Assembly (NCBI RefSeq): GCF_016650035.1
Contig: NZ_JAENWM010000013.1
Coordinates: 1-63,024 of the forward strand
DNA length: 63,024 nt
Source of the DNA: Clostridium sp.
Lineage (GTDB): Bacteria > Bacillota > Clostridia > Clostridiales > Clostridiaceae
Direction of reading: 5' to 3'
Shown: piece after piece, positions 39,262-57,466 of the stretch
How positions within the stretch are numbered: the first letter of the stretch is position 1
How the letters are laid out: every line of letters starts with the position of its first letter
The notes under the pieces: model-generated
Told to the model about the DNA's origin: nothing
The model's database searches: none
Seen by the model: only the letters and a program-made list of their open reading frames with translations
Made by a program: the position numbers and the translations under genes

Positions 39262-40995
39262 ATGTCATATAAAGAGAAATATAAAAGTTGGATTAATTCT
39301 AATTCAATAAATTTGGAATTAAAGCGCGAACTTATGCAGTTAACAGATGAAAAAGAAATTGAAGATAGATTTTATAAGGATTTAGAGTTTGGTACAGGTG
39401 GACTAAGAGGTGTGATTGGTGCTGGAACAAACAGAATGAATATACATACTATAGGTAAAGCTACGCAAGGGTTAGCAGACTATTTAAATTCTAAATATAA
39501 GGAAGCTATCTCAGTTAGTATAGCATATGATTCAAGAAATATGTCGAAGGAATTTGCAGAGGCTACTGCAGAAACTCTTTGCGGCAATGGGATTACTGTT
39601 AATTTGTTCGAAGAATTAGCACCAACCCCAGTTTTGTCTTATGCTGTTCGTGAGCTAAAGAGTAAAGCAGGTATTGTTATTACTGCATCACATAATCCCA
39701 AGCAGTATAATGGATATAAGGTCTATAGTGAAGATGGTGGACAGGTTACTGATGAAGCTGCAAAAGAAATTATTACCTGTGCAGGGAACATACTGGATTT
39801 TTCTAAAGTGAAAACTATGGAGCTTTCTAAAGCAAAAAAAGATGGAATGCTAAAAATCATTGGAGAAAACATTTATTTATCATATATGGACAAGACTAAA
39901 AGGTTAACTTTGAGAAAAGAGTTAGTTCAGGAAAAGGCCAAGGATTTAAAAATAATTTATACGCCTATTCATGGTTCTGGAAATATACCTGTGAGAAGAG
40001 TATTACGTGAACTAGGATATGACAATGTATTTGTTGTAAAGGAACAGGAAAAGCCAGATGGAAACTTTCCAACAGCTCCATACCCTAATCCAGAAGACCC
40101 AAAGGTGTTTGCGTTGGCACTTGAAATGGCAAAAAATATTAACCCAGACATTATTTTTGGTACAGACCCAGACTGTGATAGGATTGGAGTAGTAGTCAAA
40201 GACAAAGAAGGAGAGTATAAGGTTCTTACAGGAAACCAGACAGGTGTTTTGTTGTGTAATTATATCTTGAGTTCATTAAATGAGACGAGGGGACTTTCTA
40301 AAAATGCTGTAGTAATTAAAACCATTGTCACTACAGATATGGTAGAAGGTATTGCAAAAAAATATAATGTTGAAGTGTTAGATGTACTTACTGGATTTAA
40401 ATATATTGGAGAAAAAATCAAGGAATTTGAACAGGATGGTAAAAAAGAATTTGTATTTGGTTTTGAAGAAAGCTTTGGTTATTTAGCAGGAAATTTTGTA
40501 AGGGATAAAGATGCAGTTATAGCAGCAATGCTAATTTGCGAAATGACACTTTATTATAAAAATAAAGGAATGAGTCTTTATGATGCATTAATGAATGTTT
40601 ATAAAGAACATGGTTATTATAAAGAATCTCTAGTTTCCATAGAACTTAAAGGAAAAGATGGTGCTGAAAAAATAGCTAATATATTAGAAGGTTTAAGGTG
40701 TTCACTTAAAGGACTAATAGGAAATAAAAAAATTATTAAAAAAATGGATTATAAAATTGGACTAGAAGAGGATTTAATAAATAATAAGAAAAAATCAATG
40801 GAACTACCAAAATCAAATGTACTAAAGTTTGTTTTAGAGGATGGTTCTTGGTTTGTGGTTAGACCTTCTGGAACTGAACCAAAAATGAAAATTTATTTAT
40901 CGGTTAGAGGTAATTCACTTGAAGATGCATCTCAAAAAAAAATTGAGTTAAAAGAAAATGTTATGTTAATAATGGATGCAGCATGCATAAATTAA
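39262..40995 (+). CDS. pgm: Phosphoglucomutase / phosphomannomutase (phosphohexose mutase)
   Basis: Interconverts glucose-1-phosphate and glucose-6-phosphate. The 577-residue protein is an alpha-D-phosphohexomutase of the PgcA length class. It has FGTGGLRGVIGAGTNRMN, the phosphoserine loop TASHNPKQYNGYK (near residue 142), the metal-binding loop GTDPDCDRIG, the sugar loop FGFEESFGY and the phosphate-binding RPSGTEPKMKIY. With galU 2 kb downstream it can supply UDP-glucose for the polysaccharide genes. Ribosome site AAGGGGG. Confidence 0.95.
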   Translation: MSYKEKYKSWINSNSINLELKRELMQLTDEKEIEDRFYKDLEFGTGGLRGVIGAGTNRMNIHTIGKATQGLADYLNSKYKEAISVSIAYDSRNMSKEFAEATAETLCGNGITVNLFEELAPTPVLSYAVRELKSKAGIVITASHNPKQYNGYKVYSEDGGQVTDEAAKEIITCAGNILDFSKVKTMELSKAKKDGMLKIIGENIYLSYMDKTKRLTLRKELVQEKAKDLKIIYTPIHGSGNIPVRRVLRELGYDNVFVVKEQEKPDGNFPTAPYPNPEDPKVFALALEMAKNINPDIIFGTDPDCDRIGVVVKDKEGEYKVLTGNQTGVLLCNYILSSLNETRGLSKNAVVIKTIVTTDMVEGIAKKYNVEVLDVLTGFKYIGEKIKEFEQDGKKEFVFGFEESFGYLAGNFVRDKDAVIAAMLICEMTLYYKNKGMSLYDALMNVYKEHGYYKESLVSIELKGKDGAEKIANILEGLRCSLKGLIGNKKIIKKMDYKIGLEEDLINNKKKSMELPKSNVLKFVLEDGSWFVVRPSGTEPKMKIYLSVRGNSLEDASQKKIELKENVMLIMDAACIN

Positions 40996-41119
40996 AAATA
41001 GTATTAAATTATAATCTTTAGGACTAAAACTTTGTATGGTTTACAAATTATATTTAGTATACTATGATTAATAGTAGACTAAATATATATACATTTAAGA
41101 TTAGTAGGAAGGGGTAAGC

Positions 41120-42190
41120 ATGGATATTAAAACATATTTTTCAGAGAAATTATCAGAACTTCTTTTTTTAGAAATTAAAAGAAATAGCAAAATTAATGAT
41201 TATGTAATTTTGGAGGACATATATTTTCCTGTGCGAACTAATGAAGTAATTCAAAAGGTTAAGCAAAAGGAAGACTTTGATAATATACCAGTTAATTTAT
41301 TTATTGAAGGAATGTTCTATGTTTTAGGAGCAGATGAATACTTTAGATATAATGAGGAATATAAAAAAATTATAAATACTACATCAAACTCAATAGGGTT
41401 TATTAAGGGTGTTATCTTTAAAGAAATTAAAAATGAAAATTATGAAGAAGCCTATATTATATTAAAAGGACTATTAGCTATTGAAGATAATAAAGAGAAT
41501 TATGACAAAATATTTCTTGTAGTAGATAAATTAAGATCTACTAATATTATGTTCAAGGATGAACAACTAGGGCTTGTAGAAAAAGCTAAAAAAATAACCG
41601 ATTATAGTACCCCTTATTTATATGAAGCTTTAGTTCGTAATGATGAGAGTAAATATGACTTAGCATTAATAGCTTTAAATAATTATTTTACAAATGGCGG
41701 CGAACAATCAGTAGAAATTATGCAACTTAAAAACACTTTGGAAACTATAACAAATTATGAAAGGGCAAAAGAATTGGTTCCAAGTAATCCTACAGAAGCA
41801 CTCCGAATTTTGATCCCGTTAATGGATCAATTAGGAGATAAACCAGATATATATTACCACAGCGCTATAGCTTATCGGCTACTTCAAAATTATGAAAAGG
41901 CTATATATTATTTAAACGAAGCGGAGGCAATTGATACAGATTTAATTGAGGTAGTAAATGAATTTGGTATTAATTATGCTCTTCTTGAAAACCACGAGAT
42001 GGCTATTAAGTACTTTAGAAAAGCATTCCAGGTTACAAAATCTATAGAGATATGTACAAACCTTGTTATGTGTTATATAAACACTAAAAATTTTGATGAT
42101 GCAAGGTTGCATTTAGACATAGCTAGAAAAATAGATCCAGAGGATGAAATAGTACTTAAGTTAGAAAATATATTGACGGAGCATAAATAA
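41120..42190 (+). CDS. TPR-repeat protein of unknown function
   Basis: A 356-residue soluble helical protein. The C-terminal half holds tetratricopeptide repeats, best seen from about residue 240 (DIYYHSAIAYRLLQNYEKAIYYLNEA-like and two further copies with EFGINYALLENHEMAIKYFRKA and NLVMCYINTKNFDDARLHLDIA types). The N-terminal half is helical with no domain that I recognise. No signal peptide. TPR proteins act as binding scaffolds. It precedes the envelope polysaccharide genes but any link is by position only. Confidence 0.8.
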   Translation: MDIKTYFSEKLSELLFLEIKRNSKINDYVILEDIYFPVRTNEVIQKVKQKEDFDNIPVNLFIEGMFYVLGADEYFRYNEEYKKIINTTSNSIGFIKGVIFKEIKNENYEEAYIILKGLLAIEDNKENYDKIFLVVDKLRSTNIMFKDEQLGLVEKAKKITDYSTPYLYEALVRNDESKYDLALIALNNYFTNGGEQSVEIMQLKNTLETITNYERAKELVPSNPTEALRILIPLMDQLGDKPDIYYHSAIAYRLLQNYEKAIYYLNEAEAIDTDLIEVVNEFGINYALLENHEMAIKYFRKAFQVTKSIEICTNLVMCYINTKNFDDARLHLDIARKIDPEDEIVLKLENILTEHK

Positions 42191-42254
42191 TGTAGCTTAT
42201 AGAATACTTTGCTGTTATGAAAATGAAGAATAAAAGTTTAGAAGGTGTAAGTTT

Positions 42255-43025
42255 ATGATAGATTTTCACAGCCATATAATTAATGGAATTGATGATGGCG
42301 CAAAAACCTTGGACATGTCTCTTCAGATGTTAAGAAATGCAGAGAGTGAAGGTGTAGAATATATTTGTGCTACTCCTCATTTTATAACTGAAGAATTTGA
42401 AATTAGCAGTGAAAAATATACTGAAAAACTAGATGAGTTAATTTTAGCATCAAGAGAAAAAAAATTTAGTATAAAAATTTTATCTGGCCTAGAAATTTAT
42501 ATGCACCCAAGTTTACCAAAACTCTATAAAGAAAAAAAAATTTGGGGAATTAATGGTTCTGAGTATTTATTAATTGAACTTCCTATGGGGCAATTTCCTA
42601 TGTATACTGAAGATATATTTTATGAATTAATGTTACTTGGAGCTAAACCTATTTTAGCTCATCCAGAGAGAAATCATAAAATTATGCAAAATCATGATTT
42701 GGCTATTAATTTGATAAAACAAGGTGTGCTTATGCAAACAAATGTTGGAAGTTTATTAGGCGATTATGGTAAAGAAATTAAAAAGACAGCGCAAGACTTT
42801 GTAAAAGGGAATATGATACATATTTTGGGTAGTGATGGACATAATATTACAAGCAGAAAGACAACACTAAAGGATGGTTACGAAATAATAAAGAAAAGTA
42901 ATGAAGCTTTGCATCACTGGATTTTGCAAAATGAAACTAATATTATTAATAATATTGCATTGATTGATTTTTTAGAATTAAACCTTAAAAAAGGGAAATT
43001 TTCATTTTTCAATATTTTTAAATAA
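42255..43025 (+). CDS. ywqE: Protein-tyrosine phosphatase, PHP family (YwqE/CpsB)
   Basis: A 256-residue PHP-domain phosphatase of the CpsB/CapC/YwqE type, which dephosphorylates bacterial tyrosine kinases that control polysaccharide synthesis. Metal ligands are visible in DFHSHIINGIDDGAKTLDMSLQM, ATPHFI, LAHPERNHK and LGSDGHN. The usual partner kinase and modulator (capA/capB, ywqC/ywqD) are not adjacent; galU and polymer genes follow. ATG 42255 follows AGAAGGTG. Confidence 0.92.
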   Translation: MIDFHSHIINGIDDGAKTLDMSLQMLRNAESEGVEYICATPHFITEEFEISSEKYTEKLDELILASREKKFSIKILSGLEIYMHPSLPKLYKEKKIWGINGSEYLLIELPMGQFPMYTEDIFYELMLLGAKPILAHPERNHKIMQNHDLAINLIKQGVLMQTNVGSLLGDYGKEIKKTAQDFVKGNMIHILGSDGHNITSRKTTLKDGYEIIKKSNEALHHWILQNETNIINNIALIDFLELNLKKGKFSFFNIFK

Positions 43026-43028
43026 GTT

Positions 43029-43134
43029 TAATGACATTTCAGAAGGAAAGTCTTCAACTTCTATAAGTGGGAGTTACATGCTATAATAAATAAAAAACTT
43101 CAGTGGAAGTCTAAATCTCCTTCTGAAGTCGTTA
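43029..43134. repeat. 106-bp nested inverted repeat, MITE- or IS605-like remnant
   Basis: The outer arms TTCAGAAGGA (43038-43047) and TCCTTCTGAA (43118-43127) pair perfectly, and the pairing continues outward (TAATGAC against GTCGTTA). Inside are two small hairpins, ACTTCTATAAGT and ACTTCAGTGGAAGT. This looks like a mobile-element end cluster rather than a terminator, as there is no T run. Multi-copy status cannot be tested here. Confidence 0.45.
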
Positions 43135-43196
43135 ATATTGCAGCATCGCAGATGATGATTTAATCTAGAATTATGCTATTTGAGGGGAGAATAAAT

Positions 43197-44108
43197 ATGA
43201 GAGTTAAAAAAGCTATAATACCAGCAGCAGGACTTGGTACAAGATTTTTACCGGCTACAAAGTCTCAACCTAAAGAGATGTTACCAATTGTGGATAAACC
43301 AACAATACAGTATATTATAGAAGAAGCGGTTGCATCTGGAATTGAGGAAATATTAATTATCACAGGAAGAAATAAAAGAGCAATAGAAGACCATTTTGAT
43401 AAGTCCATTGAACTTGAATTACAATTAGAGCAAACTGGTAAAGACGAAGTCTTAAAAATGGTTAGAGATATATCTAATATGGCAAATATCTATTACATAA
43501 GGCAGAAAGAACCTAAAGGACTTGGCCATGCTATAAACTGTGCTAAAACTTTTGTTGGCAATGAACCTTTTGCTGTAATGTTGGGTGACGACGTAGTAGA
43601 TAGTGAAGTGCCTTGCCTAAAACAACTTATGAATTGTTATGAAGAACATAAAACTTCAGTTTTAGGAGTTCAAAAGGTACCATTAAACCAGGTTTCTAAA
43701 TACGGTATAGTAGATGGAACACTTATAGCGGATAGAGTTTATAAAGTTAATGATGTTATCGAAAAGCCCAAGGAGAGTGAAGCACCATCGAATATAGCTA
43801 TTTTAGGGAGATATATCATAACACCTAGGATATTCAATATTTTAGCAAATACAAAGCCTGGTAAGGGTGGAGAAATACAACTTACGGATGCTTTAAAGAC
43901 TTTAATATCAGAAGAAGATATGTACGCTTATAATTTTGAGGGTAGAAGATATGATGCAGGAGATAAAGAAGGCTTTTTAGAAGCAACTGTGGAATATGCA
44001 CTTAAAAGGGATGACCTAAAGGAAACTTTTATGAAGTATCTTTTAACTATTAAGGATAATGATAAGTTTAAAGAAATTTATAACAAATGCAATAAAAATC
44101 AAGATTAG
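43197..44108 (+). CDS. galU: UTP-glucose-1-phosphate uridylyltransferase
   Basis: Makes UDP-glucose from UTP and glucose-1-phosphate for glycolipids and wall polymers. The 303-residue protein has the nucleotide-binding AIIPAAGLGTRFLPATKSQPKEMLPIVDKP, EILIITGRNKRAIEDHFD, the PKGLGHAINCAKTFVG motif, the LGDDVVDS metal site and the GKGGEIQLTDAL block. The start is ATG 43197 behind GAGGGGAG; an earlier in-frame ATG at 43173 has no ribosome site. Confidence 0.96.
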   Translation: MRVKKAIIPAAGLGTRFLPATKSQPKEMLPIVDKPTIQYIIEEAVASGIEEILIITGRNKRAIEDHFDKSIELELQLEQTGKDEVLKMVRDISNMANIYYIRQKEPKGLGHAINCAKTFVGNEPFAVMLGDDVVDSEVPCLKQLMNCYEEHKTSVLGVQKVPLNQVSKYGIVDGTLIADRVYKVNDVIEKPKESEAPSNIAILGRYIITPRIFNILANTKPGKGGEIQLTDALKTLISEEDMYAYNFEGRRYDAGDKEGFLEATVEYALKRDDLKETFMKYLLTIKDNDKFKEIYNKCNKNQD

Positions 44109-44125
44109 AATTGCTATGATAGATA

Positions 44126-44160
44126 AAGATGCTTAACAATTATTAATTGTTGAGCATCTT
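44126..44160 (+). terminator. galU terminator
   Basis: AAGATGCTTAACAATT pairs with AATTGTTGAGCATCTT (one mismatch) and is followed by TTAAATT. Confidence 0.75.
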
Positions 44161-44238
44161 TAAATTATACAAATATCAAGATTTAGGATATAATAATATA
44201 TGCTGAGATATAGAAGAAAAAATATTGGAGGTGTGTGT

Positions 44239-45480
44239 GTGAATTTTTATCGGAGGATATTATTTTTAGTAACATGTGTTTATATTACTTTATTGCCTTT
44301 AGTTCCACAATCAATAAAATTAAAAGGAATACCATATACTGATTTAATTTTAGCATTAGTTATTCTTGCATATTTAATTAATTTAGTAATGTCTAAAAAA
44401 GTCAGAGAAAATTTTGTTGTGGGTATTATTGATTTCTTCACAGAAAAAATGAGTATATTTATGGTGATATTACTTGCTATAATGTTTGCATCTGCTATTT
44501 ATGCATTCAATAAAAAATTAGCATTAACTGAAAGTGTAAGATTTGCAACTTATATATTTATGTATTTTATTATAAAATATGAACTTAATAATAAGAAGCA
44601 AATAAACATTTTGCTTAAATGTTATATAGTAACTTCTTTTGTTTTGTGCTCTGTAGGAATTATGCAATATTTTACAGGGTTTGCATTGGAGGGACAGTTT
44701 TTAGTAATCTATGAAACTGGTAAAAACGTAAAGATAGCTGCTACACTATATAACCCTAATTCTTATGGTGCTTATTTAATATTAATAATATTTCCTGTAA
44801 TTATGTTAGGTTTTTATGAAAAAAATAAATATAGGAAAATAATATATATATTACTTTCAGCATTAATACTTACTAATTTACTTATGACATATTCCAGAAA
44901 TGCATTATTAGGCTTTGTACTCGGATTATTAGTACTTACGGTAATTTATAGCTATAAATTGATTTTTGCCCTTGGCGGCTTTGGTGTTTTAATTTGCTTT
45001 ATTCCTTCTGTTTTTCAAAGAATTAAAAGTATTACTAATATGTCTGGAAACGTAATAAGAATTAAGCTTTGGAAAACAGCTTTAATGATGATAAAGGAAC
45101 ATCCGATTTTAGGTGTTGGTAATGGAAATTACGTTGCGAGATATAATGAATATATATTTAAGTATAAGGATCTTAGGTATTTTTCATATCGAAATTTTCC
45201 TACCCATAATTCATATTTAAAAGTACAAAGTGAACTCGGCATAATTGGAATAGGTTCTTTCTTAGGAGTAGTGATAACGGCACTTTTTAGAATTAGAAAA
45301 TTTTATAGAACAACGGAAGATAAGTTTCATAAACCATTTTATATGGGCGTAATGGCCAGTATGGTTGCTTTTCTATTTATGAATTTATCAGATAATTTAT
45401 TTTTTGTTCCTAAAGCAACAACTTATTTTTGGTTTTTATTAGCTACTGCAGAAGCATTATTAAACCATCAGAATGTTTGA
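44239..45480 (+). CDS. O-antigen ligase / polymerase-like membrane protein
   Basis: A 413-residue polytopic protein with about 10-12 transmembrane helices and the Wzy_C/O-antigen-ligase type signature. The conserved loop is HPILGVGNGNYVARYNEYI, followed by a histidine in FPTHNSYLKVQSELGIIGIGSF. Such proteins polymerise or ligate surface polysaccharides outside the membrane, as proposed for TuaE in teichuronic acid synthesis. GTG 44239 is chosen because GGAGGT (44227-44232) precedes it. Followed by tagA and a glycosyltransferase in one likely transcription unit. Confidence 0.85.
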   Translation: MNFYRRILFLVTCVYITLLPLVPQSIKLKGIPYTDLILALVILAYLINLVMSKKVRENFVVGIIDFFTEKMSIFMVILLAIMFASAIYAFNKKLALTESVRFATYIFMYFIIKYELNNKKQINILLKCYIVTSFVLCSVGIMQYFTGFALEGQFLVIYETGKNVKIAATLYNPNSYGAYLILIIFPVIMLGFYEKNKYRKIIYILLSALILTNLLMTYSRNALLGFVLGLLVLTVIYSYKLIFALGGFGVLICFIPSVFQRIKSITNMSGNVIRIKLWKTALMMIKEHPILGVGNGNYVARYNEYIFKYKDLRYFSYRNFPTHNSYLKVQSELGIIGIGSFLGVVITALFRIRKFYRTTEDKFHKPFYMGVMASMVAFLFMNLSDNLFFVPKATTYFWFLLATAEALLNHQNV

Positions 45481-45525
45481 TTTTATAGGAATAGCTGCAT
45501 AAAGTAGTTTACGTGGAGGGGTTTT

Positions 45526-46251
45526 ATGACGACAAAAATTTTTCAGTATCAAATTTTCGATAATAATATGGAAGAATTACTTAAAACTATAGGTGATTTT
45601 GAAAAAGTACATATTGTCTCAGGAAATCCAGAAGTGCTTCTGAATGGACTTCAAAATAATGTATTGTTAGATAATTTAACTAGTAAAAATTCAATCATCA
45701 TTCCAGACGGAATCAGTACAGTAATATGTTCAAAAATTGTAGGTAAGCCGGTGCAAGAAAAGATAGCTGGTGTAGAACTCATGGAACGTATAGTAAAAAA
45801 GTGTGAAAAAGAAAACCAAGGAATATATTTGTTAGGAGCTACAAAAGAAACTGTGGATATGTGTAATATTAATTTACGAACTAAATATCGAAAATTAGAT
45901 ATTTTAGGTAGCCATGATGGATATTTCGAAATTGATAATTGTGAAGAAATATTAAAGGAAATAGAAAATGTTAACCCAAAAGTGCTATTTGTTGCAATGG
46001 GATGTCCTAGACAAGAAATATTTATAGCTAAATATATGGACAGACTTCCTTGTAGTGTATTTATGGGGGTTGGAGGTAGTTTTGATATTATAGCTGGTAA
46101 TCTTAAACGTGCACCAAAATGGATGATAAATATAGGGATGGAATGGTTATATAGAGTTGCTAAAGAACCATTTAGAATTAAAAGACTATCATCTATACCT
46201 AAATTTATTTTAATGGTTATAAAGGACAAATATTTTTCGAGTTCACATTAA
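45526..46251 (+). CDS. tagA: WecG/TagA/CpsF-family glycosyltransferase
   Basis: A 241-residue GT26-family enzyme; in Bacillus TagA adds N-acetylmannosamine to lipid-linked GlcNAc in wall teichoic acid. It has VHIVSGNPEVLLNG, IIPDGISTVICSK, the catalytic region ELMERIVKKCEKENQGIYLLGATKETV, NPKVLFVAMGCPRQEIFIAKY, GVGGSFDIIAGNLKRAPKW and the C-terminal GMEWLYRVAKEPFRIKRL. All family motifs are present. Donor sugar cannot be assigned by eye. The ATG follows GGAGGGG. Confidence 0.92.
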   Translation: MTTKIFQYQIFDNNMEELLKTIGDFEKVHIVSGNPEVLLNGLQNNVLLDNLTSKNSIIIPDGISTVICSKIVGKPVQEKIAGVELMERIVKKCEKENQGIYLLGATKETVDMCNINLRTKYRKLDILGSHDGYFEIDNCEEILKEIENVNPKVLFVAMGCPRQEIFIAKYMDRLPCSVFMGVGGSFDIIAGNLKRAPKWMINIGMEWLYRVAKEPFRIKRLSSIPKFILMVIKDKYFSSSH

Positions 46252-46297
46252 GGCGGCATTTTAATGAATAAGATGATAAAAAAGAAGGTGTTTAGGT

Positions 46298-47422
46298 ATG
46301 AGATATTTTATGCAGTATCTTAAAACTTCAAATGTTAACTTAATTAAAGATATGGGTATGATACCATATTTGCTTCATAAGAAATATGGATACGATTCAA
46401 CCGTGGTCACTTATAAAAATGGGGAGTATAAATATTTACAAGATGAAGTAAAAGGATTAAAATTAAAATTTGTTAAAAAAATATTTAATAGTTATTCTCT
46501 AGATGGAGCATTACACTTATTAAAACATGGCAAAAATATGGATGTAATGCAGGTTTTTCATGTAACCTTAAGTTCTGTAGTTTATGTTTATAGTTATAAA
46601 TTCAAGAATAAAGCAGGAAAAGTGTATTTAAAGTTAGATTGCAGCCATAAGTTGCTGGAGAGAATTAAAGAACTGAATAAAATCCAATTATATTTTTTAA
46701 ATAAATTTTTTAATAAGGTAGATTTAATTAGTATAGAGCAAGAAGAATTATATTATAGACTAAAAAAAATACTTGGAAAACATGAGAGCAAAATAATTAA
46801 TATTCCTAATGGCATAGATTTTGAAGTACTTAAAAGCAAAGGATTGTGCTATGACTTTTCTAAAAAAGAAAATGTTATATTAAATGTAGCTAGAATAGGT
46901 ACTGAGGAAAAAAATACGCCTATGCTTCTTGAGGCTTTTGCAAATATTAAGAATATAGAAAATCTTGGTTGGAAATTAAAGTTAGTTGGAACAGTAGAAG
47001 AGGAATTCAAACCCTATATCGAGCAATATTTTAAAAGATATCCAAAATTAATTGATAATGTGATTTTTTTAGGAGAAATGTCGGATAGAAATGAAATTTT
47101 TCATGAGTATTGTAAAGCAAAGATTTTTTCTTTAACATCTAAATTTGAGAGTTTTGGAATTGTCTTTATTGAAGCAGCAGCAATGGGGAATGTTATTGTA
47201 TCAACAGATGTAGGTATAGCTAAAGAACTTATAAGTGATGAGAATGGTAAGCTAGTAAATCCAGGGGATGTTGATGAATTAACTAAGGGATTTGAAAAGT
47301 ATATTAATGAAAATAATTTGCAAAAATATGCGGATGAAACTTATAATATATGCAAACGAAGATTTGATTGGAATATTATAATAGAAATGCTTAATGATAA
47401 TATTATAAAAATCATGAAATAG
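46298..47422 (+). CDS. Glycosyltransferase, GT4-like
   Basis: A 374-residue GT-B fold enzyme. The C-terminal nucleotide-sugar domain has NVILNVARIGTEEKNTPMLLEAFAN, VIFLGEMSDRNEIFHEYCKAKIFSLTS and the E-x7-E motif ESFGIVFIEAAAMGNVIVSTDVG. The N-terminal domain is more divergent. It probably adds a sugar to the surface polymer handled by the neighbouring ligase-like protein and TagA. Ribosome site AGAAGGTG. Confidence 0.88.
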   Translation: MRYFMQYLKTSNVNLIKDMGMIPYLLHKKYGYDSTVVTYKNGEYKYLQDEVKGLKLKFVKKIFNSYSLDGALHLLKHGKNMDVMQVFHVTLSSVVYVYSYKFKNKAGKVYLKLDCSHKLLERIKELNKIQLYFLNKFFNKVDLISIEQEELYYRLKKILGKHESKIINIPNGIDFEVLKSKGLCYDFSKKENVILNVARIGTEEKNTPMLLEAFANIKNIENLGWKLKLVGTVEEEFKPYIEQYFKRYPKLIDNVIFLGEMSDRNEIFHEYCKAKIFSLTSKFESFGIVFIEAAAMGNVIVSTDVGIAKELISDENGKLVNPGDVDELTKGFEKYINENNLQKYADETYNICKRRFDWNIIIEMLNDNIIKIMK

Positions 47423-49311: not shown

Positions 49312-50835
49312 ATGACAATTATACAAATTAACGGGAATAAGCTTACTTTAGATGAAATAGTGAAAGTTGCAAGAAAAGGTTATAAGGTAGAATTAACTGT
49401 GGAAGCAGAAGAAAGAGTTATTAAATCTAGAAGTATTGTAGATGAAATAGTAGATAATAATAGAGTGATTTATGGTATTACTACAGGTTTTGGTAAATTT
49501 AGTGATGTAACAATATCAGGAGAGGATTGTAAACAGTTACAAAGGAATCTGATAATTTCTCATGCTTGTGGTACCGGAAAATCTTTTTCTAATGAGATTG
49601 TTAAAACTATAATGTTATTAAGGGCAAATGCCCTTGCAAAAGGATACTCTGGAATAAGACTAAGTACACTTAAAACATTAATTCAAATGATAAACAGCGG
49701 AGTAAATCCAATAATACCTGAAAAGGGGTCACTTGGAGCATCAGGGGATTTAGCACCATTAGCTCATATGGTGCTTCCAATGATTGGGAATGGAGAAGCT
49801 GAATTTAATGGTGAAATATTAAAAGGTAAAGAGGCTATGAAAAAGGCAGGCATAGAAATTATAGAACTTACAGCTAAAGAAGGATTAGCACTAATAAATG
49901 GTACGCAAGTTATGACTGCCGTAGGTGCATTAGCAGTGTATGATAGTATAAACCTACTTAAGATAAGTGATATTGCAGCAGCATTAAGCTTAGAAGCTTT
50001 AAGAGGTGTAAAAGATGCCTTTGATCCAAGAACACATAGTATAAGACCACACAAAGGTCAAATACAAACTGCTAAAAACATATTGAATCTAACAGAAGGA
50101 AGCACATTCATAACCTCTCAAGGGGAGATTAGAGTGCAAGATGCGTATTCATTAAGATGTATACCTCAAGTTCATGGTGCAAGTAAAGACGCAGTGGAGT
50201 ACATTAAAAGCAAGGTTGACATTGAAATTAACTCCGTTACAGATAATCCAATAGTTACAGAAGAGGGGGATGTTATTTCAGGAGGAAATTTTCATGGGCA
50301 ACCTATGGCAATAAGCTTTGACTTTTTAGGAATAGCAATGGCTGAAGTGGCTAGTATTTCAGAAAGAAGACTAGAAAGACTTATTAATTATCAATTAAAT
50401 GATTTACCAGCTTTTTTAGTAAAAGAAGGTGGGTTAAATTCAGGGTTTATGATAACTCAATATGCAGCTGCGGCCTTAGTATCTGAGAATAAAATTTTAG
50501 CACATCCGGCTTCCGTTGATTCTATTCCTTCTTCTGCAAATCAAGAAGATCATGTAAGTATGGGAACTATAGCAGCTAGAAAAGGCAGAGATATTATTGA
50601 AAATGTTCAAAGAGTCTTAGCTACTGAGATTATGGCAGCTTGTCAAGCTATAGATTTTAGAGTAGGATATACTTTAGGAGTAGGTACAAAGCAGGCTTAT
50701 GAAGTTGTACGAGAAAATATAAAGTTTATTGAAAAAGATGTGATTATGTATGTTGAATTAGATAAGGTTACTAAGTTAATTCAGGATGGAGATATACTTA
50801 AAAGAGTGGAACAAAAGATAAAGGTATTAGTTTAA
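49312..50835 (+). CDS. hutH: Histidine ammonia-lyase
   Basis: Deaminates L-histidine to urocanate, the first step of histidine degradation. The 507-residue protein has the Ala-Ser-Gly triad that forms the MIO cofactor in GSLGASGDLAPLAHM (residues 143-145), YGITTGFGKFSD at the N-terminus, NGTQVMTAVGAL, DAYSLRCIPQVHG, TDNPIV and SSANQEDHVSMG. Length is typical. It leads hutH-ftcD-hutI-fchA; the gaps are 23-63 bp. Ribosome site GGGAGGA. Urocanase (hutU), the second enzyme, is missing from the operon. Confidence 0.96.
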   Translation: MTIIQINGNKLTLDEIVKVARKGYKVELTVEAEERVIKSRSIVDEIVDNNRVIYGITTGFGKFSDVTISGEDCKQLQRNLIISHACGTGKSFSNEIVKTIMLLRANALAKGYSGIRLSTLKTLIQMINSGVNPIIPEKGSLGASGDLAPLAHMVLPMIGNGEAEFNGEILKGKEAMKKAGIEIIELTAKEGLALINGTQVMTAVGALAVYDSINLLKISDIAAALSLEALRGVKDAFDPRTHSIRPHKGQIQTAKNILNLTEGSTFITSQGEIRVQDAYSLRCIPQVHGASKDAVEYIKSKVDIEINSVTDNPIVTEEGDVISGGNFHGQPMAISFDFLGIAMAEVASISERRLERLINYQLNDLPAFLVKEGGLNSGFMITQYAAAALVSENKILAHPASVDSIPSSANQEDHVSMGTIAARKGRDIIENVQRVLATEIMAACQAIDFRVGYTLGVGTKQAYEVVRENIKFIEKDVIMYVELDKVTKLIQDGDILKRVEQKIKVLV

Positions 50836-50878
50836 ATTACAATAACCCGTAAATAATAAACTTTAGGAGTGAAATAAA

Positions 50879-51775
50879 ATGGCTAGAATAGTTGAATGTA
50901 TACCTAATTTTAGTGAAGGAAGAAATAAAGTGGTAATTGAAAAAATAATTGATGCAGTTAGAAATACCGAAGGAATTAAATTATTAGATTACTCATCAGA
51001 CAGTGACCATAATAGAACAGTGGTTACTTTTTTTGGAACACCAGAGAGAGTAGAAAAAGCTATTTTAGACATGGCAGCAAGAGTGTATGAGAATATTGAT
51101 ATGACCTCGCAAACAGGTGCACATCCTAGAATGGGAGCTTTAGACGTAGTACCATTTGTTCCTATTAGCGAAGTAACTATGGAGGAGTGTGTTGCTTTAG
51201 CTAAAAGGGTAGGCAGTGAAATAGCAAATAGATTCAATATACCAGTATATTTATATGAAAAAGCTGCTTCCGCCGCTCATAGAGAAAATTTAGCTACAGT
51301 AAGAAAAGGCCAATATGAAGGATTTTTTGAAAAGATTAAAGAAAACAAATGGGTACCGGATTACGGTATAGCTGAGGTTAATGTTAAAGGTGGTTGCGTT
51401 GCAATAGGCGCAAGAGTACCTCTAGTAGCTTTTAATGTGAATTTAGGAACGGATAACCTTAAAATTGCTGATAAAATAGCTAAAACTGTTAGAAATCTCG
51501 GTGGTGGTTTAAGATTTGTAAAAGCTATGGGAGTAAAACTGGAAGAAAGAAATATAACACAAGTATCTATGAATCTAGTTAATTATGAGAAAACAGCAGT
51601 ATATAGAGCTTTCGAAATGGTCAAGATGGAGGCAAAACGCTACGGAGTTCCAGTAGTTGGAAGTGAAGTTATTGGATTACTACCAATGGAAGCGTTAATT
51701 CAATGTGCAGAATATTATTTGCAAATAGAGGAATTTTCAATGAATCAAGTTTTAGAAAAGAGAATTTGGGAATAG
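50879..51775 (+). CDS. ftcD: Glutamate formimidoyltransferase
   Basis: Transfers the formimino group from N-formimino-L-glutamate to tetrahydrofolate, releasing glutamate. The 298-residue protein is the transferase part only, with ARIVECIPNFSEGRNK, LLDYSSDSDHNRTVVTFFG, TGAHPRMGALDVVPFVPI and VPVVGSEVIGLLPMEAL. In mammals this is fused to the cyclodeaminase; here that domain is the separate fchA gene. Ribosome site TAGGAGTG. Confidence 0.95.
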   Translation: MARIVECIPNFSEGRNKVVIEKIIDAVRNTEGIKLLDYSSDSDHNRTVVTFFGTPERVEKAILDMAARVYENIDMTSQTGAHPRMGALDVVPFVPISEVTMEECVALAKRVGSEIANRFNIPVYLYEKAASAAHRENLATVRKGQYEGFFEKIKENKWVPDYGIAEVNVKGGCVAIGARVPLVAFNVNLGTDNLKIADKIAKTVRNLGGGLRFVKAMGVKLEERNITQVSMNLVNYEKTAVYRAFEMVKMEAKRYGVPVVGSEVIGLLPMEALIQCAEYYLQIEEFSMNQVLEKRIWE

Positions 51776-51838
51776 AATGTTGAAATTGACTAAAGATAAA
51801 TTATAATAATATTATTTGTTGGATTGGAGGAAAGCATC

Positions 51839-53083
51839 TTGTCTATTATAGTAAAGAATATTGATTGCTTAGTCACTTGCAACGGAAGTTACGGAAAAAA
51901 ACGTGAAGCGATGAAGGATGCCCAAATTATAGAAAATGGTTATATAGTCATTGAAAATGACAAAATAAAAGATGTAGGGAAAGGCGATGGTTATAAAGAC
52001 TACATAAAAAGCGATTCCGTAGTTATTAACGGATCGGGTAGGACTGTTACACCGGGCCTTATAGATCCGCATACCCATGTTGTGTATGCGGGCTCGAGAG
52101 AAAAGGAACTGCCTCTAAAACTTAATGAGGTGGGATATATTGAAATATTAAATAGTGGCGGAGGAATACTAAGCACAGTTCAAAATACTAGAAGTATTAA
52201 AGTAGAGAAGCTTATAGAAGAAAGCAGAAAAAGGCTAGACATAATGCTTAAACATGGTACTACGACTGTCGAAAGTAAATCAGGATATGGACTTGATCTT
52301 CAAACAGAGGTTAAAATTCTTAAGGTTAATAAAACTTTAAACGACACCCATGCTATAGATGTGATATCCACATTTATGGGTGCACATGCGTTGCCGAAGG
52401 AATACAAAGATAATCGAGAAGGTTACATTGAAAACATAAATAATAATATGATTCCATATATTAGCGAGAATAAACTTGCAGAATTTATCGATTGTTTTTG
52501 TGAGGAAGGTGTGTTTTCTGTAGAAGAGTGCAGACACATTTTAAAAGCTGGTAAAAAGTTTGGGTTAAATATAAAAATTCATGCAGATGAAGTTAAAACA
52601 GTTGAGGGTGCTGAACTTGCAGGTGAGCTAAAAGCTACATCGGCAGAACATTTAGTTGCAGCTTCAGATGCAGGAATAAAGGCACTAGCTGAAAATGATG
52701 TGGTGGCTGTATTATTACCATCAACCTCGTTTTATTTAATGTTAAACAATTTTGCTAGAGCTAGAAAAATGATAGAGCAAGGAGTTACAGTAGCTTTAGC
52801 TACTGATTGTAATCCCGGCACATCTCCTACAGAATCGTTACAAACGGTTATGACTTTTGCATGTTTTGGTATGAAAATGTTCCCAGAGGAGATTATCAAT
52901 GCAATGACAATAAATGCGGCATGTGCTATAAATCGTGAAAAGGAGATTGGAAGCATTGAAGTTGGGAAGAAAGCAGATATTGTTGTCTTTAATAGTAAAA
53001 ATTTAAATTATTTAATATATCATTTTGGAGCAAATGCTGTAGACATAGTGATAAAAAACGGTAAAATTGTTGTGCAAAATTAA
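51839..53083 (+). CDS. hutI: Imidazolonepropionase
   Basis: Hydrolyses imidazolone-5-propionate to N-formimino-L-glutamate. The 414-residue amidohydrolase has metal ligands in TPGLIDPHTHVVYAGSREKEL, IKIHADEVKTVEG and ALATDCNPGTSPTESLQ, plus TTVESKSGYGLD. The start is taken as TTG 51839 because TTGGAGGA (51824-51831) is the ribosome site; an in-frame TTG at 51824 overlaps that site. It needs the product of urocanase, which is not encoded here. Confidence 0.95.
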   Translation: MSIIVKNIDCLVTCNGSYGKKREAMKDAQIIENGYIVIENDKIKDVGKGDGYKDYIKSDSVVINGSGRTVTPGLIDPHTHVVYAGSREKELPLKLNEVGYIEILNSGGGILSTVQNTRSIKVEKLIEESRKRLDIMLKHGTTTVESKSGYGLDLQTEVKILKVNKTLNDTHAIDVISTFMGAHALPKEYKDNREGYIENINNNMIPYISENKLAEFIDCFCEEGVFSVEECRHILKAGKKFGLNIKIHADEVKTVEGAELAGELKATSAEHLVAASDAGIKALAENDVVAVLLPSTSFYLMLNNFARARKMIEQGVTVALATDCNPGTSPTESLQTVMTFACFGMKMFPEEIINAMTINAACAINREKEIGSIEVGKKADIVVFNSKNLNYLIYHFGANAVDIVIKNGKIVVQN

Positions 53084-53106
53084 ATTATCATAAAGGAGAT
53101 TACAAT

Positions 53107-53742
53107 ATGTTAGACCAAAAGACTGTTAGAGAATTTATTAAGGAACTCGGATCAAATTTCCCTGCACCTGGAGGAGGTAGTGTTGCGGCCTTAGGTTCAT
53201 CGTTAGCTAGTGCCTTATGTGCAATGGTGTTTAATTTAACTGTAGATAAAAAGACATACAACGAATACAGTGAAGAAAATAAAATGATTGTTGACAAAAA
53301 CTTAGCGCAATGTGTCAATCATAAGGAAGAATTTTTAGATCTAATGAACAGTGATGCAGAGGTTTTTTTAAGTCTGATGTCAACTTTTAAACTTTCTAAA
53401 CAAAGCGACGAAGAAAAGAAATTAAGAAGCCAAAAAATTCAAGAAGGATATAAAGCAGCTTTAGAAATTCCTATGAAGGTTGCAGAAGAATCATATAAAA
53501 TTTATATGCATGTTAAAATAGCAGCAGAACTGGGAAACAAAAATGCACTATCTGATGCTGGAGTGGCAGCTTTAATGCTTCAAGCATCTATTGAAAGTGC
53601 TGTTTTAAATGTTAAAATAAATCTTTCTAGTATTAAAGATGAAACATATAAAGAAGAAATTACTTCAAAATGCGAAAAATTAATAAAATGTGGAAGAAAA
53701 AAGCGAGATGAAGTATTAGCAATTGTTAATGAAAGTATATAG
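53107..53742 (+). CDS. fchA: Formiminotetrahydrofolate cyclodeaminase
   Basis: Converts 5-formimino-THF to 5,10-methenyl-THF and ammonia. The 211-residue, all-helical FTCD_C-type protein has FPAPGGGSVAALGSSLASALCAMV near its N-terminus, the folate-binding signature, and NKNALSDAGVAALMLQASIESAVLNVKINL in the second half. Some annotators call such proteins methenyl-THF cyclohydrolase; with ftcD next to it the cyclodeaminase role is preferred. Last gene of the operon, ended by a long hairpin. Confidence 0.93.
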   Translation: MLDQKTVREFIKELGSNFPAPGGGSVAALGSSLASALCAMVFNLTVDKKTYNEYSEENKMIVDKNLAQCVNHKEEFLDLMNSDAEVFLSLMSTFKLSKQSDEEKKLRSQKIQEGYKAALEIPMKVAEESYKIYMHVKIAAELGNKNALSDAGVAALMLQASIESAVLNVKINLSSIKDETYKEEITSKCEKLIKCGRKKRDEVLAIVNESI

Positions 53743-53884: not shown

Positions 53885-55639
53885 ATGTTAGATGTGTTTA
53901 AACAGAAAATATGTGAATTATATAATATTATTCTAAGTCCAATAGACGATATGTTTAAAATAGTTGCCTTAGAAAACTATAAAAATGAAATAGATGCGTC
54001 ACTGAAAAAGTGCTTTGGTGAAATTTATTATGAGTTTATCAAAAATAATAAAGAAAAAGGTACAGTTTACACTCCAGAGCCTATAGCCTCTTATATGATT
54101 GAGAATACCATAAAGTCGGAGCAAATAATAGACAACCCATATATAAAAATTGTGGATCCCGCTTGTGGTACAGGCAATTTACTAATTCCTTGTTTCAAAT
54201 TTCTTAGAAATCTATATGAAGAAAATTTAACTGAAATTAATGAGAAAAATGGTTTGAAAATAAAGTTCAAATGCATTAGTGAACATATAATAAAACATAA
54301 TCTATACGGATTTGATATTGACCATATAGCCATAAAAATACTTGTTATAGATTTATATGATTTAAGCCAGGGGAATATATGTAGCAATATTTTTAATGAA
54401 GATTTTTTATTATATGAGAAGGTCCATAAATATGACATTTTCATAGGAAATCCACCATATGTGGGTAAAAAATCTATAGACAAAGAATATGCATCATATT
54501 TAAAAATTAGATACAGTGAAGTGTATAGAGATAAAGGTGATTTATCATATTGTTTTTTTAAGAAGTCATTAGAAGGCCTTAATAAGATAGGAAAACTTAC
54601 TTTTATAACTTCTAGATATTTTTTAGAATCACCTAGTGGAAAGGATTTGCGAAAAGTTTTAAAAGAATTATGCAACATAGACAGAATTATTGACTTTTAC
54701 GGAATAAGGCCATTTAAAAATGTGGGAATAGACCCTGTAATTATGTTTATTACAAATCATCAAAAAGATCAAAATGAAATTGAAATTATAAAACCAATAA
54801 ATATTAATGGTAAAAATAATAGAGAGTTTTACAACAGTTTGTTTTTAAAGATGGGCAATGAGTATAATAAATTTTATATTAATAAAAATGAACTAAATAA
54901 CAAGGGCTGGATTTTAAGGGACGAAAAACAGAGGAATATAATAAATAAAATAGAACAGAGGAGCTTTACCAATCTAAGTAATATATGTAATAGTTATCAA
55001 GGGATAATAACTGGTTGTGATAAAGCTTTTGTACTGACAGATGATACTTCTAAAAGAGAAAACATAGAAAAAAGCATAATAAAGCCTTGGATTAAGAGTA
55101 GTTTCATAGGGAAAAATGTAGTCTTAAGAAAAGATAGTTACATAATATATTCGGATTTAATCCATAACTCAAAAGAGTATCCAAGTGCCATAGCGTATAT
55201 TGGAAAGCAAAAGGAAAAGCTATTAAAAAGAAGAGAATGCGTCAAAGGTATTAGAAAATGGTATGAACTTCAATGGGGCAGAAATCAAAATATATTTGAA
55301 GGAGAAAAGATAATTTTTCCATTCAAAGCCAGTAATAATAGATTCGCTCTTGACAAGGGAAGTTACTTTAGTGCAGATGTATATGCACTAATATTAAAAG
55401 AAGATGTGCCTTTTACTTACGATTTTTTATTGTATTTATTAAATAGTAAAATATACGAATTTTATTTTAAGACCTTTGCAAAAAAACTAGGCGAAGATGC
55501 TTATGAATACTATCCAAATAATTTAATGAAACTATGTATGCCAACTATGATAGATTTTAATTACAAAGACGATAATTATCTTTATGATTTTTTTCAATTT
55601 GATGAAGAGGAGAAAAATATTATACTTGGAGAAGTATAA
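53885..55639 (+). CDS. camA: CamA-like N6-adenine DNA methyltransferase
   Basis: A 584-residue class I, gamma-type N6-adenine methyltransferase. Motif I is VDPACGTGNLL (near residue 90) for S-adenosylmethionine, motif IV is GNPPYVGKK (NPPY at about 189), preceded by KGTVYTPEPIASYMIE, a typical motif X. From memory it shares long blocks with CamA of Clostridioides difficile (about 577 residues, target CAAAAA). These are KYSEVY..KADL-like IRYSEVYRDKGDLSYCFFKK, RYFLESPSGKDLRK, YQGIITGCDKAFVL, KRRECVKGIRKWYELQWGR and KASNNRFALDKGSYFSADVYA, in the same order. The last blocks lie in the target-recognition part, so the same target is likely. No restriction gene is next to it. It sits between the hut operon and spoIIA. 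C. difficile CamA supports sporulation. Confidence 0.88.
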   Translation: MLDVFKQKICELYNIILSPIDDMFKIVALENYKNEIDASLKKCFGEIYYEFIKNNKEKGTVYTPEPIASYMIENTIKSEQIIDNPYIKIVDPACGTGNLLIPCFKFLRNLYEENLTEINEKNGLKIKFKCISEHIIKHNLYGFDIDHIAIKILVIDLYDLSQGNICSNIFNEDFLLYEKVHKYDIFIGNPPYVGKKSIDKEYASYLKIRYSEVYRDKGDLSYCFFKKSLEGLNKIGKLTFITSRYFLESPSGKDLRKVLKELCNIDRIIDFYGIRPFKNVGIDPVIMFITNHQKDQNEIEIIKPININGKNNREFYNSLFLKMGNEYNKFYINKNELNNKGWILRDEKQRNIINKIEQRSFTNLSNICNSYQGIITGCDKAFVLTDDTSKRENIEKSIIKPWIKSSFIGKNVVLRKDSYIIYSDLIHNSKEYPSAIAYIGKQKEKLLKRRECVKGIRKWYELQWGRNQNIFEGEKIIFPFKASNNRFALDKGSYFSADVYALILKEDVPFTYDFLLYLLNSKIYEFYFKTFAKKLGEDAYEYYPNNLMKLCMPTMIDFNYKDDNYLYDFFQFDEEEKNIILGEV

Positions 55640-55925
55640 TATTTTCTTTTTTTTTTGAATATTTACATAAATAATTACAAAAATTAATTAAAATAACTAA
55701 AACTAAAACAAAAGTGTAACAATCACTTTATTATAATAAAATAGTTATAAAAAATCTAAATAAGTATTTATAATGTATTAAAACTAACAAAAATGACTAT
55801 AATATTAAAAAATTGAATAAATATTACAAAAAAAGAAGGGAAATTATGTAATTTGTAGAATATAGAAAATAGGAATAATATTTATTGAAAATTATTTTAA
55901 TTTCAAATTATTTGGGGGGAAGAAA
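55640..55925 (+). promoter_or_regulatory. spoIIA promoter region with CAAAAA sites
   Basis: These 286 bp contain no gene. They hold CAAAAA on the plus strand at 55678-55683, 55798-55803 and 55827-55832, and on the minus strand at 55652-55657. The sigma-H promoter follows at 55835-55863. I find no clear Spo0A box (TGTCGAA). Confidence 0.65.
55835..55863 (+). promoter_or_regulatory. Sigma-H promoter of the spoIIA operon
   Basis: GAAGGGAAA (55835-55843), an 11-bp spacer and GTAGAATAT (55855-55863) match RnAGGAwWW-N11/12-RnnGAATww with one mismatch in the -35. spoIIA is transcribed by sigma-H in Bacillus. The spacing and -10 are nearly the same as in the spoVS promoter in this window. Start predicted near 55870. 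Confidence 0.68.
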
Positions 55926-56261
55926 ATGCATTTAAATTTTGAAAATAGCCAAGATAAATTGATAGTTTACATGTCTGGAGAATTAGATCATCATAGTGCT
56001 GAAGAAGTAAGGAATATTATTGATGATCGTTTAGACAGGGATAGATTCAACAAGCTAATCATGGACTTTAATGGTGTGTCCTTCATGGACAGTTCTGGTA
56101 TTGGAGTAGTTATTGGAAGATACAGAAAGTTACATATGAGAAACGGAGAAGTATGTGTAACTAATATTAAATCTTCAGTGAAAAGAGTGTTCGAGTTGTC
56201 AGGAATGTTTAAGATTATAATGTCATATGATGACGTTGAACAAGCTATAAAGAATATTTAG
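55926..56261 (+). CDS. spoIIAA: Anti-sigma F factor antagonist SpoIIAA
   Basis: A 111-residue STAS-domain protein that, when unphosphorylated, binds SpoIIAB and frees sigma-F in the forespore. The phosphorylated serine is Ser57 in [18 protein letters not shown], matching Ser58 of Bacillus. [15 protein letters not shown] is the conserved first part. The ATG at 55926 follows TGGGGGGA. First gene of spoIIAA-spoIIAB-sigF. Confidence 0.97.
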
Positions 56262-56274
56262 TGGGGGGATTAAA

Positions 56275-56703
56275 ATGTGTCACAATAAAATAAAAATTGA
56301 ATTTTTAAGTAAATCCCAGAATGAAGGTTTTGCAAGAGTAGCAGTAGCAGCATTTGCTACTCAATTAGATCCTACAATTGAAGAGATTAACGACGTTAAA
56401 ACAGCGGTATCAGAGGCAGTTACAAATGCAATTATTCATGGATATGATAGTGAAGAGGAAATAATAACTATCGAAGCTATTATTGATGGAAATGAATTAA
56501 CAGTGATAGTAAACGACGTAGGAAAAGGAATAGATAATTTAGAGGAAGCTCTTCAACCATTATACACATCACGCCCAGATTTAGAGAGATCAGGTATGGG
56601 TTTTACTGTAATGGATACTTTTATGGATAGCTTAGAAGTAAAGTCTGATAAAGGTAGGGGAACAAGTATAATCATGAAAAAACTATTTACTCCTTTAAAT
56701 TAG
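56275..56703 (+). CDS. spoIIAB: Anti-sigma F factor and kinase SpoIIAB
   Basis: A 142-residue GHKL protein kinase that holds sigma-F inactive and phosphorylates SpoIIAA. ATP-binding boxes are visible: [15 protein letters not shown] (N box), [12 protein letters not shown] (G1) and [17 protein letters not shown] (G2), closing with [13 protein letters not shown]. It is 13 bp after spoIIAA behind a GGGGGGA ribosome site. Confidence 0.97.
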
Positions 56704-56713
56704 GTGGAATATT

Positions 56714-57466
56714 ATGGATCAAAAAATAGTGAGAAAAAACAATTATAATTATGATGATAATGTGCATCTCATTGAAATGGCTAAAATTGGAGAGCCTGGT
56801 GCACTGGATAGGTTAGTAGAAATGAATTTACCGTTAGCTGCTTCAATAAGTAAAAAGTTTCTTAATAGAGGATATGAGTATGATGATATTTTCCAAATTG
56901 GGTGTATTGGGCTTGTAAAATCAATTAAAAATTTTGATACTAAATATAATGTAAAATTTTCTACATACGCAGTACCTATGATAATAGGAGAAATCAAAAG
57001 GTTTCTTAGGGATGACGGAATTATAAAAGTAAGTAGAAGCGTTAAAAATACTGCTCGAAAATTACATTATGATAAAGATACTCTAACAAAAGAATTGGGT
57101 AGAGACCCAACGATTGAAGAACTATCGGTATTTTCAGGAGTACCAAAGGAAGATATAGTATATGCACTAGAATCTGCTAGTAACATGCAGTATTTATTTG
57201 ATACTATACACCAAGAGGATGGTGCACCGGTTCTACTAATAGATAAATTAAGTGAAAAGTACGAAGAAGATAATGAGGTTTTAGATAAAATAGCCCTTAA
57301 AGAAGCACTTAGAAAACTTGATGCAAAATCAAGGCAAATAATTATGCTTAGATATTTTAAAGATAATACCCAAATTCAAGTGGCAAAGATGATGGGGATT
57401 AGTCAAGTACAGGTATCAAGAATAGAAAAGAAAGTTTTGAAAATAATGAAAGAAAAGTTGAGTTGA
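56714..57466 (+). CDS. sigF: RNA polymerase sigma-F factor
   Basis: The first forespore-specific sigma factor. The 250-residue protein has region 2 (RLVEMNLPLAASISKKFLNRGYEYDDIFQIGCIGLVKSI with KFSTYAVPMIIGEIKRFLRDDG), region 3 with RSVKNTARKL, and region 4 with MLRYFKDNTQIQVAKMMGISQVQVSRIEKK. It follows spoIIAB by 10 bp (GGTGGAATATT). A terminator separates it from spoVAC. Confidence 0.97.
   Translation: MDQKIVRKNNYNYDDNVHLIEMAKIGEPGALDRLVEMNLPLAASISKKFLNRGYEYDDIFQIGCIGLVKSIKNFDTKYNVKFSTYAVPMIIGEIKRFLRDDGIIKVSRSVKNTARKLHYDKDTLTKELGRDPTIEELSVFSGVPKEDIVYALESASNMQYLFDTIHQEDGAPVLLIDKLSEKYEEDNEVLDKIALKEALRKLDAKSRQIIMLRYFKDNTQIQVAKMMGISQVQVSRIEKKVLKIMKEKLS

Follow-up and report, generated by a model that had tools for sequence, protein, structure and literature searches.

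Does the position of an adenine methyltransferase gene directly before the sigF operon of a Clostridium genome couple a DNA mark to sporulation, or does it reflect inherited gene order? The locus lies in a 63,024-nucleotide stretch of contig NZ_JAENWM010000013.1 (the window), for which a first-pass annotation had proposed a CamA-like enzyme without a restriction partner, a previously undescribed linkage to spoIIAA-spoIIAB-sigF, and co-evolution or co-regulation of the mark and the sporulation switch. The founding paper on CamA, the C. difficile enzyme used for comparison, is that of Oliveira et al. 2020.

Identity of the methyltransferase

53885..55639, + strand: CamA-family N6-adenine DNA methyltransferase, orphan as far as tested, 584 aa (P0001; ORF, PDB, Pfam, PADLOC)
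54449..54460, + strand: catalytic NPPY motif, residues 189-192 (alignment)
54917..55636, + strand: target-recognition domain, about residues 345-584 (alignment to the CamA contacts given in the available text of PMC8187626)

P0001 is confirmed by sequence comparison as a new member of the CamA family. Its best PDB matches are two CamA sequences (360 bits, E 2.3e-106), aligned over residues 54-562 of P0001 and 23-538 of CamA, which makes CamA the nearest solved relative; M.BseCI, the next one, reaches 84 bits. The blocks RYFLESPSGKDLR, YQGIITGCDKAF, RRECVKGIRKWYELQWGR and NRFALDKGSYFSADVYA, on which the first-pass annotation had based the likeness to CamA, are all found in P0001 and align with their counterparts in the CamA crystal sequence. 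Pfam domains in P0001 comprise Eco57I, N6_Mtase, MmeI_Mtase, TaqI_C and UPF0020, and the protein thus combines the N6_Mtase/Eco57I catalytic domain with a TaqI_C-type recognition domain and NPPY, as the CamA family requires. NPPY is unchanged across an alignment of 28 rows, and the PADLOC MTase_II model (577 positions) matches P0001 at E 2.3e-108. The annotation had placed the feature at 53885-55925; its start agrees with that of the gene, whereas the ORF ends at 55639 and the remaining 286 bp are intergenic before spoIIAA.

It is highly improbable that P0001 once served as the methylase of a restriction-modification or type IIG/BREX-like defence system and was orphaned later. Type IIG and PglX models do occur among its weaker PADLOC and NCBIfam matches, and its Eco57I/TaqI-like architecture would suit such an origin. 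M.BseCI, which belongs to a restriction-modification pair, and other Eco57I/TaqI_C-type methylases share the catalytic motif and are related in sequence. However, the six NCBIfam matches lie far under their cut-offs, short of type IIG or BREX PglX membership. Pfam detected no nuclease domain in the 584 aa, and among 17 other proteins of the window (7 + 10), a subset of the ORFs in the 63 kb, PADLOC identified no restriction enzyme; as far as tested, the methyltransferase is an orphan, as had been proposed. The gene is also under purifying selection (dN/dS 0.10-0.15 against 12 congeners), and its distances follow those of SigF. In domain architecture, NPPY, ten core base contacts and the lack of a visible restriction partner, CamA (M.Cdi25 / CD630_27580) resembles P0001. 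A role in sporulation has been shown for the C. difficile enzyme, whereas the window gene is known here from its sequence.

Base contacts and predicted target

The available text of PMC8187626 lists 15 residues that read the bases of CAAAAA in the CamA crystal structure, of which 11 are identical in P0001. Residues Q372, I375, R450, Q463, W464, R466, K481, S496, A497 and Y543 of P0001 correspond to Q346, I349, R425, Q438, W439, R441, K456, S472, A473 and Y521 of CamA, and the contacts to C1 and A2, together with the major-groove contacts to A3, are the same in both enzymes. Four of the fifteen contacts differ, H171, Y455, S514 and I517 of CamA being replaced by K, F, G and A. All ten core contacts are kept in 118 of 120 full-length homologues, and the two exceptions (L076 and L106) are both changed at Q438. 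These 120 were drawn from 129 aligned proteins by excluding seven shorter than 550 aa as well as L108 and L110, whose contacts are intact. Mean agreement with the reference L167 across the 120 homologues is 0.84 at the contacts and 0.42 elsewhere in the recognition domain; of 20,000 randomly drawn position sets, not one was as conserved as the contacts. L167 is a C. difficile-type protein of 577 aa that stands in for C. difficile CamA; it aligns end to end and without gaps to the CamA PDB sequence (1130 bits), to which it is not identical, and shares about 39% identity with P0001.

Glycine at CamA position 514 is common to P0001 and the loci that we take to be those of A. woodii (L165, genome G301), C. 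pasteurianum (G147 / L025) and C. acetobutylicum (L062), for all of which CAAAAAR has been published, while C. difficile (CAAAAA) has serine. The species identity of genome G159 is presumed in the same way as those of G301 and G147. The contrast at position 514 is a weak one because serine is rare there, being present in about 6% of the 120 homologues. Together with kinship it provides the only grounds for preferring CAAAAAR over CAAAAA for P0001.

According to the available parts of the published methylomes, CAAAAAR carries m6A in several Clostridia. The lone M gene CP6013_1459 accompanies the mark in C. pasteurianum (PMC5027557), and in A. woodii the motif was assigned to Awo_c14460 by expressing the single enzyme (PMC6700114). 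Further reports concern E. limosum, C. ljungdahlii, C. autoethanogenum, C. acetobutylicum, C. botulinum, C. sporogenes and C. tetani. Methylation is partial in some strains: two studies of C. pasteurianum give 24% and 97%, and the figure for C. ljungdahlii is 10.7%. From the contacts and these methylomes of relatives, the target of P0001 is predicted to be CAAAAAR. The spread of the motif is not new, since the available text of PMC10745947 already proposes that such motifs may share the function of CamA.

A family member with a target other than that of CamA, for example CRAAAAR, would be conceivable on account of the changes H171K, Y455F, S514G and I517A, and CRAAAAR is known from C. cadaveris and C. 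carboxidivorans in the published reports available in part. This alternative is unlikely, however, given that the contacts to C1, A2 and the A3 major groove are those of CamA, that L025, L062 and L165 also deviate at two or three of the four positions in species published as CAAAAAR, and that the CRAAAAR of C. carboxidivorans has been assigned, in the text available, to a restriction-modification fusion protein.

Distribution and descent of the family

The family gene occurs in all 17 genomes of the window's genus and was matched in 98/206 genomes of its family and 117/225 genomes of its order (42 of 56 genera). In the class sample it was matched in 50/393 genomes, three of these matches being weak (E above 1e-60: G444, G486 and G496), and in the phylum sample, under a different threshold, in 3/398 (two Clostridiaceae; one match an ORF of 1105 aa). 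It was not found in the 20 listed members of genus g3 in the family sample, and the matches in G186-G188 (E about 1e-59 to 1e-62) may be other enzymes. A scan of genome contigs confirmed 402 relatives, the best 80 of which include proteins of C. psychrophilum, C. frigoris, C. bowmanii and C. algoriphilum with 74-80% identity. In the portions available, CamA is called rare in other bacteria by PMC8187626 (2021), and C. difficile-specific and a promising antimicrobial target by PMC13395437 (2026). The counts, 117/225 in the order, disagree with both "rare" and "C. difficile-specific".

Distances of the methylase and of SigF correlate (Mantel r 0.72; 0/999 permutations as high, the best reaching 0.40) in 59 of 75 loci, the other 16 being without full SigF or SpoIIAB. 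In a tree of 55 rows, a single clade (SH-aLRT 99) unites 25 of the 26 Clostridiaceae rows. The one outside it, L108 (795 aa), groups with other orders, is not linked to spoIIA and looks horizontally acquired; L110 (707 aa) is, like L108, a longer family member in Clostridiaceae. A second family forms a group of its own (SH-aLRT 91), and the C. difficile-type row adjoins two rows of its own family. L087, the single row of a third family, is spoIIA-linked yet falls among other orders (87), a placement that argues against simple vertical descent across the whole order. The tree comes from a quick search, is weakly supported at 17 of its 52 inner branches and does not recover the outgroup as a unit; at best, it supports vertical descent within Clostridiaceae. 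The relation of P0001 to C. difficile CamA is one of common family membership, short of settled orthology.

Interrupted or truncated copies of the gene were observed in G097, G129, G136, G152, G175, G214, G221, G327 and G365, and five of these (G097, G129, G152, G175 and G214) still stand beside spoIIA. The copy in a C. ljungdahlii contig (L238), the species with published CAAAAAR methylation of 10.7%, also looks interrupted.

Gene neighbourhood and linkage to spoIIA

49312..53742, + strand: hutH, ftcD, hutI and fchA (histidine degradation), upstream of the methyltransferase (homology, synteny)
55926..56261, + strand: spoIIAA (STAS domain, gene order)
56275..56703, + strand: spoIIAB (HATPase_c_2, gene order)
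56714..57466, + strand: sigF (sigma-70 regions 2 and 4; matched in 17/17 genomes of the genus)

In the window the methyltransferase stands directly before spoIIAA-spoIIAB-sigF on the same strand, as the first-pass annotation had read it. A survey of gene neighbourhoods found a downstream spoIIAA, in the same orientation and no more than 7 kb away, in 82 of 98 determinable genomes, which belong to 32 genera (hand count) and three families (69, 12 and 1 genomes) and count as related genomes rather than independent events. Flanks were examined in 110 of the 117 order genomes with a match (left out: G183, G186, G187, G188, G204, G221 and G223). The distance to spoIIAA is below 520 bp, on the same strand, in 36/110 and 0.5-7 kb in 46/110. 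The operon gene is not within roughly 7 kb in 12/110, all of them of the window's genus, and is missing from a flank of 10-11.6 kb in 4/110 (G001, G098, G133 and G168); the remaining 12/110 are undeterminable because of a contig end or short flank. A speE-like spermidine synthase gene intervenes in 39 of the 46 linked non-adjacent genomes; it is oppositely oriented in 34 of these and co-oriented in 5. Neither spoIIAA nor spoIIAB was seen in 20 loci from other orders, in two of which (L157 and L166) the sequence stops about 0.3 kb past the gene.

Sister strains of the window present a mixed picture, spoIIA being not within about 7 kb of the methyltransferase in 12 of 16 congeners. In nine of these 12, sigF lies 13-24 kb downstream on the same contig and strand, and in three it is on another contig. 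The gap starts, in five inspected congeners, with acyl-CoA ligase-, LuxE- and LuxC-like genes (named from sequence). The cluster between methyltransferase and spoIIA in L114, L117, L120, L121 and L124 also has a PAS/sigma-54 regulator and, in two, a MaoC-like protein.

Among relatives whose methylation has been studied, the C. difficile-type locus L167 is unlike the window in that its flanks, about 8 kb on each side, contain no spoIIA. L165, taken as the locus of Awo_c14460, resembles P0001 in its intact core contacts and G at position 514, whereas spoIIA does not adjoin it and its genome has no spoIIE match. In G147, taken as C. pasteurianum, the family gene lies upstream of spoIIA with speE between, and this gene is presumably CP6013_1459. 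Like P0001, CP6013_1459 is a lone methylase, and the available text of PMC5027557 does not mention a linkage to spoIIA.

At least one hut or fchA homologue occurs upstream on the same strand in 68/110 genomes, a lower bound given upstream flanks of unequal length. The synteny thus extends beyond sporulation genes, and the presence of histidine-degradation genes in it points to inherited gene order. The methyltransferase has also been lost beside an intact spoIIA operon: in G153, fchA lies directly upstream of spoIIAA where genus relatives have the methylase between them, and G132 retains a remnant of 43 residues beside spoIIA. The linkage is far beyond chance, real and old. The chromosomal position is best read as inheritance of an ancestral synteny, and functional coupling lacks support. 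No description of the linkage was found in the literature searched, which agrees with the earlier claim of novelty; the linkage itself is wider and older than that claim supposed.

Further upstream in the window, positions 39262-47422 hold surface polysaccharide genes (phosphomannomutase, CpsB/CapC, nucleotidyltransferase, O-antigen ligase-like, WecG/TagA and glycosyltransferase), and an Orn/Lys/Arg decarboxylase gene occupies 37460-38965 on the minus strand.

Transcription units

55609..55657, + strand: AT-rich hairpin with U-tract overlapping the methyltransferase gene end, read as an intrinsic terminator
55678..55832, + strand: three CAAAAA sites in the intergenic region (starts 55678, 55788 and 55827)
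55837..55861, + strand: sigma-H-like promoter of spoIIAA, AGGGAAATT...GTAGAAT

The hairpin at the end of the methyltransferase gene has a predicted energy of -14.6 kcal/mol (z -3.9), and none of 200 shuffles was as stable; a terminator scan requiring at least three G-C pairs found none at the gene end. Of 34 directly adjacent loci, 19 have a hairpin of -6 kcal/mol or below with a U-tract after the gene, compared with 0 of 34 mononucleotide shuffles, and in the other 15 no hairpin was found; two of the 36 adjacent loci, being gene fragments, were left out. A pattern based on the sigma-H consensus was found upstream of spoIIAA in 59/105 genomes, against 2.4 expected from mononucleotide shuffles; 54 of these are among the 77 genomes that bear the gene and 5 among the 28 that lack it. 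Read-through from the methyltransferase into spoIIAA was rejected on the basis of the terminator-like hairpin and the separate spoIIAA promoter.

The gene-lacking loci L330-L357, largely of genus g3, often have a same-strand ORF before spoIIAA that by its look encodes a Lon-type protease. The sigma-H-like site is mostly missing near their spoIIAA start, three of the five matches include a GGAGGTGAA stretch, and their spoIIA operon may start further upstream.

Relation to sporulation

Co-regulation of the methylase and the sigF operon, through read-through or methylation of the spoIIA promoter, would allow the enzyme to tune sigma-F, as CamA does through spoIIE. In C. difficile, CamA acts on sigma-F via one site in PspoIIE (available text of PMC13395437), and a linkage found in 82 of 98 determinable genomes and 32 genera, with fewer than 520 bp between in 36, would suit such a coupling. 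One CAAAAA site in the window also lies 10 bp upstream of the spoIIA -35-like box, another lies at -109 of the spoIIE promoter of the same species, just upstream of a conserved TGTC element, and the 47 CAAAAA sites above spoIIAA in 77 gene-bearing genomes slightly exceed the 39.2 expected. Nevertheless, we regard this reading as quite unlikely. The hairpin and the spoIIAA promoter separate the two units, speE intervenes in most linked non-adjacent genomes, mainly on the opposite strand, and RT-qPCR in C. difficile found the sigF operon transcribed similarly with and without camA (PMC13395437, in the portion available).

The promoters, moreover, are not clearly enriched in the motif over shuffles. 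CAAAAAR occurs 18 times above spoIIAA in the 77 gene-bearing genomes, against 21.0 expected (five of the 82 linked genomes, with an interrupted methyltransferase, were left out), and the 28 gene-lacking genomes have 14 CAAAAA (12.4 expected) and 9 CAAAAAR (6.7 expected). In the 250 bp above spoIIE, CAAAAA is not enriched in 30 gene-bearing genomes (19 against 18.7 expected), whereas 28 gene-lacking genomes contain 21 (15.5 expected). Of the 30 gene-lacking genomes searched, two were without usable spoIIE and two without a spoIIAB match; the spoIIE of L327 was kept in the set though below the family cut-off.

The individual sites fare no better. A conserved CamA site above the spoIIA -35 box was rejected, since no more than 7 of the 17 genomes in the genus retain it (4 by pattern and 3 by eye). 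Among four congeners, one has a CAAAAA site in the spoIIE promoter, at -96, and the other three have none within 250 bp. Conserved CAAAAA in spoIIE promoters was likewise rejected: a site 18-19 bp above TGTC occurs in 4 of 30 (L272, L285, L287 and L291), three of them from one genus, and constitutes a post hoc lead. Much of the family shares a strongly conserved spoIIE promoter region from about -110 to -30 (L270-L326), with a TGTCCTAAAAAA-like and a TTATGACATTTATTTCCA-like element and TATAAT, which offers a good set for defining clostridial Spo0A boxes.

Occurrence of the gene does not follow sporulation either. A spoIIE match at 1e-60, a cut-off that would miss weaker homologues, was counted by hand in 33 of 50 gene-bearing and 252 of 343 other genomes of the class sample (32 of 47 gene-bearing genomes without the three weak methyltransferase matches), which indicates no positive association of the gene with sporulation in the class. 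Of the 17 gene-bearing genomes without a spoIIE match, six were examined (G301, G361, G393, G425, G538 and G564), and all ten core contacts are intact in their homologues. Co-regulation or co-evolution of the mark and the sporulation switch, as suggested by the first-pass annotation, is not supported: besides the promoter evidence and the intervening speE, the gene has been lost beside intact spoIIA, contact-intact relatives are without a spoIIE match, 12 of 16 congeners lack the close linkage, and hut genes share the synteny.

A further possibility is that CAAAAA(R) methylation is an ancestral epigenetic layer of Clostridia and that selection has held the gene beside spoIIAB-sigF in Clostridiales through late entry into the forespore. 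A strong and old linkage could have been held by selection, and this is compatible with the synteny data. In B. subtilis, genes at this chromosomal position are late to enter the forespore. Were this so here, forespore and mother cell would be unequal in methylating capacity, as in SpoIIAB, immediately after the polar division; methylation of a motif on a single strand already leaves the sister chromosomes in different states once they have replicated. We consider this very unlikely; late gene entry is argued, in the available text of PMC13395437, to be weaker in C. difficile.

It is probable, in our judgement, that P0001 is a CamA-family orphan CAAAAAR methylase of largely vertical descent, retained in an ancestral synteny as its own transcription unit and acting as a global tuner. 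The enzyme would place m6A on the last A of CAAAAAR (a purine after CAAAAA) on one strand, genome-wide. The gene would have been inherited largely vertically in Clostridiaceae from an order ancestor in which it stood between the histidine-degradation cluster and spoIIAA-spoIIAB-sigF, an arrangement whose compact form the window appears to keep. It would be transcribed separately and end at the terminator-like hairpin, with a separate sigma-H promoter serving spoIIA. Most likely the enzyme is a global epigenetic tuner, a role established for CamA in C. difficile, and any effect on sporulation would arise through particular CAAAAAR sites rather than chromosomal position.

Implications

A methyltransferase family with the same base-reading residues as CamA is common in Clostridiales and also present elsewhere in the class, and the selectivity argument for CamA as an antimicrobial target therefore needs revisiting. 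The biology of the mark is consequently open to study in harmless species, such as C. acetobutylicum. The old synteny with spoIIA, undescribed as far as the literature searched shows, offers together with natural losses of the gene ready comparisons for judging the importance of the mark to sporulation in species other than C. difficile.
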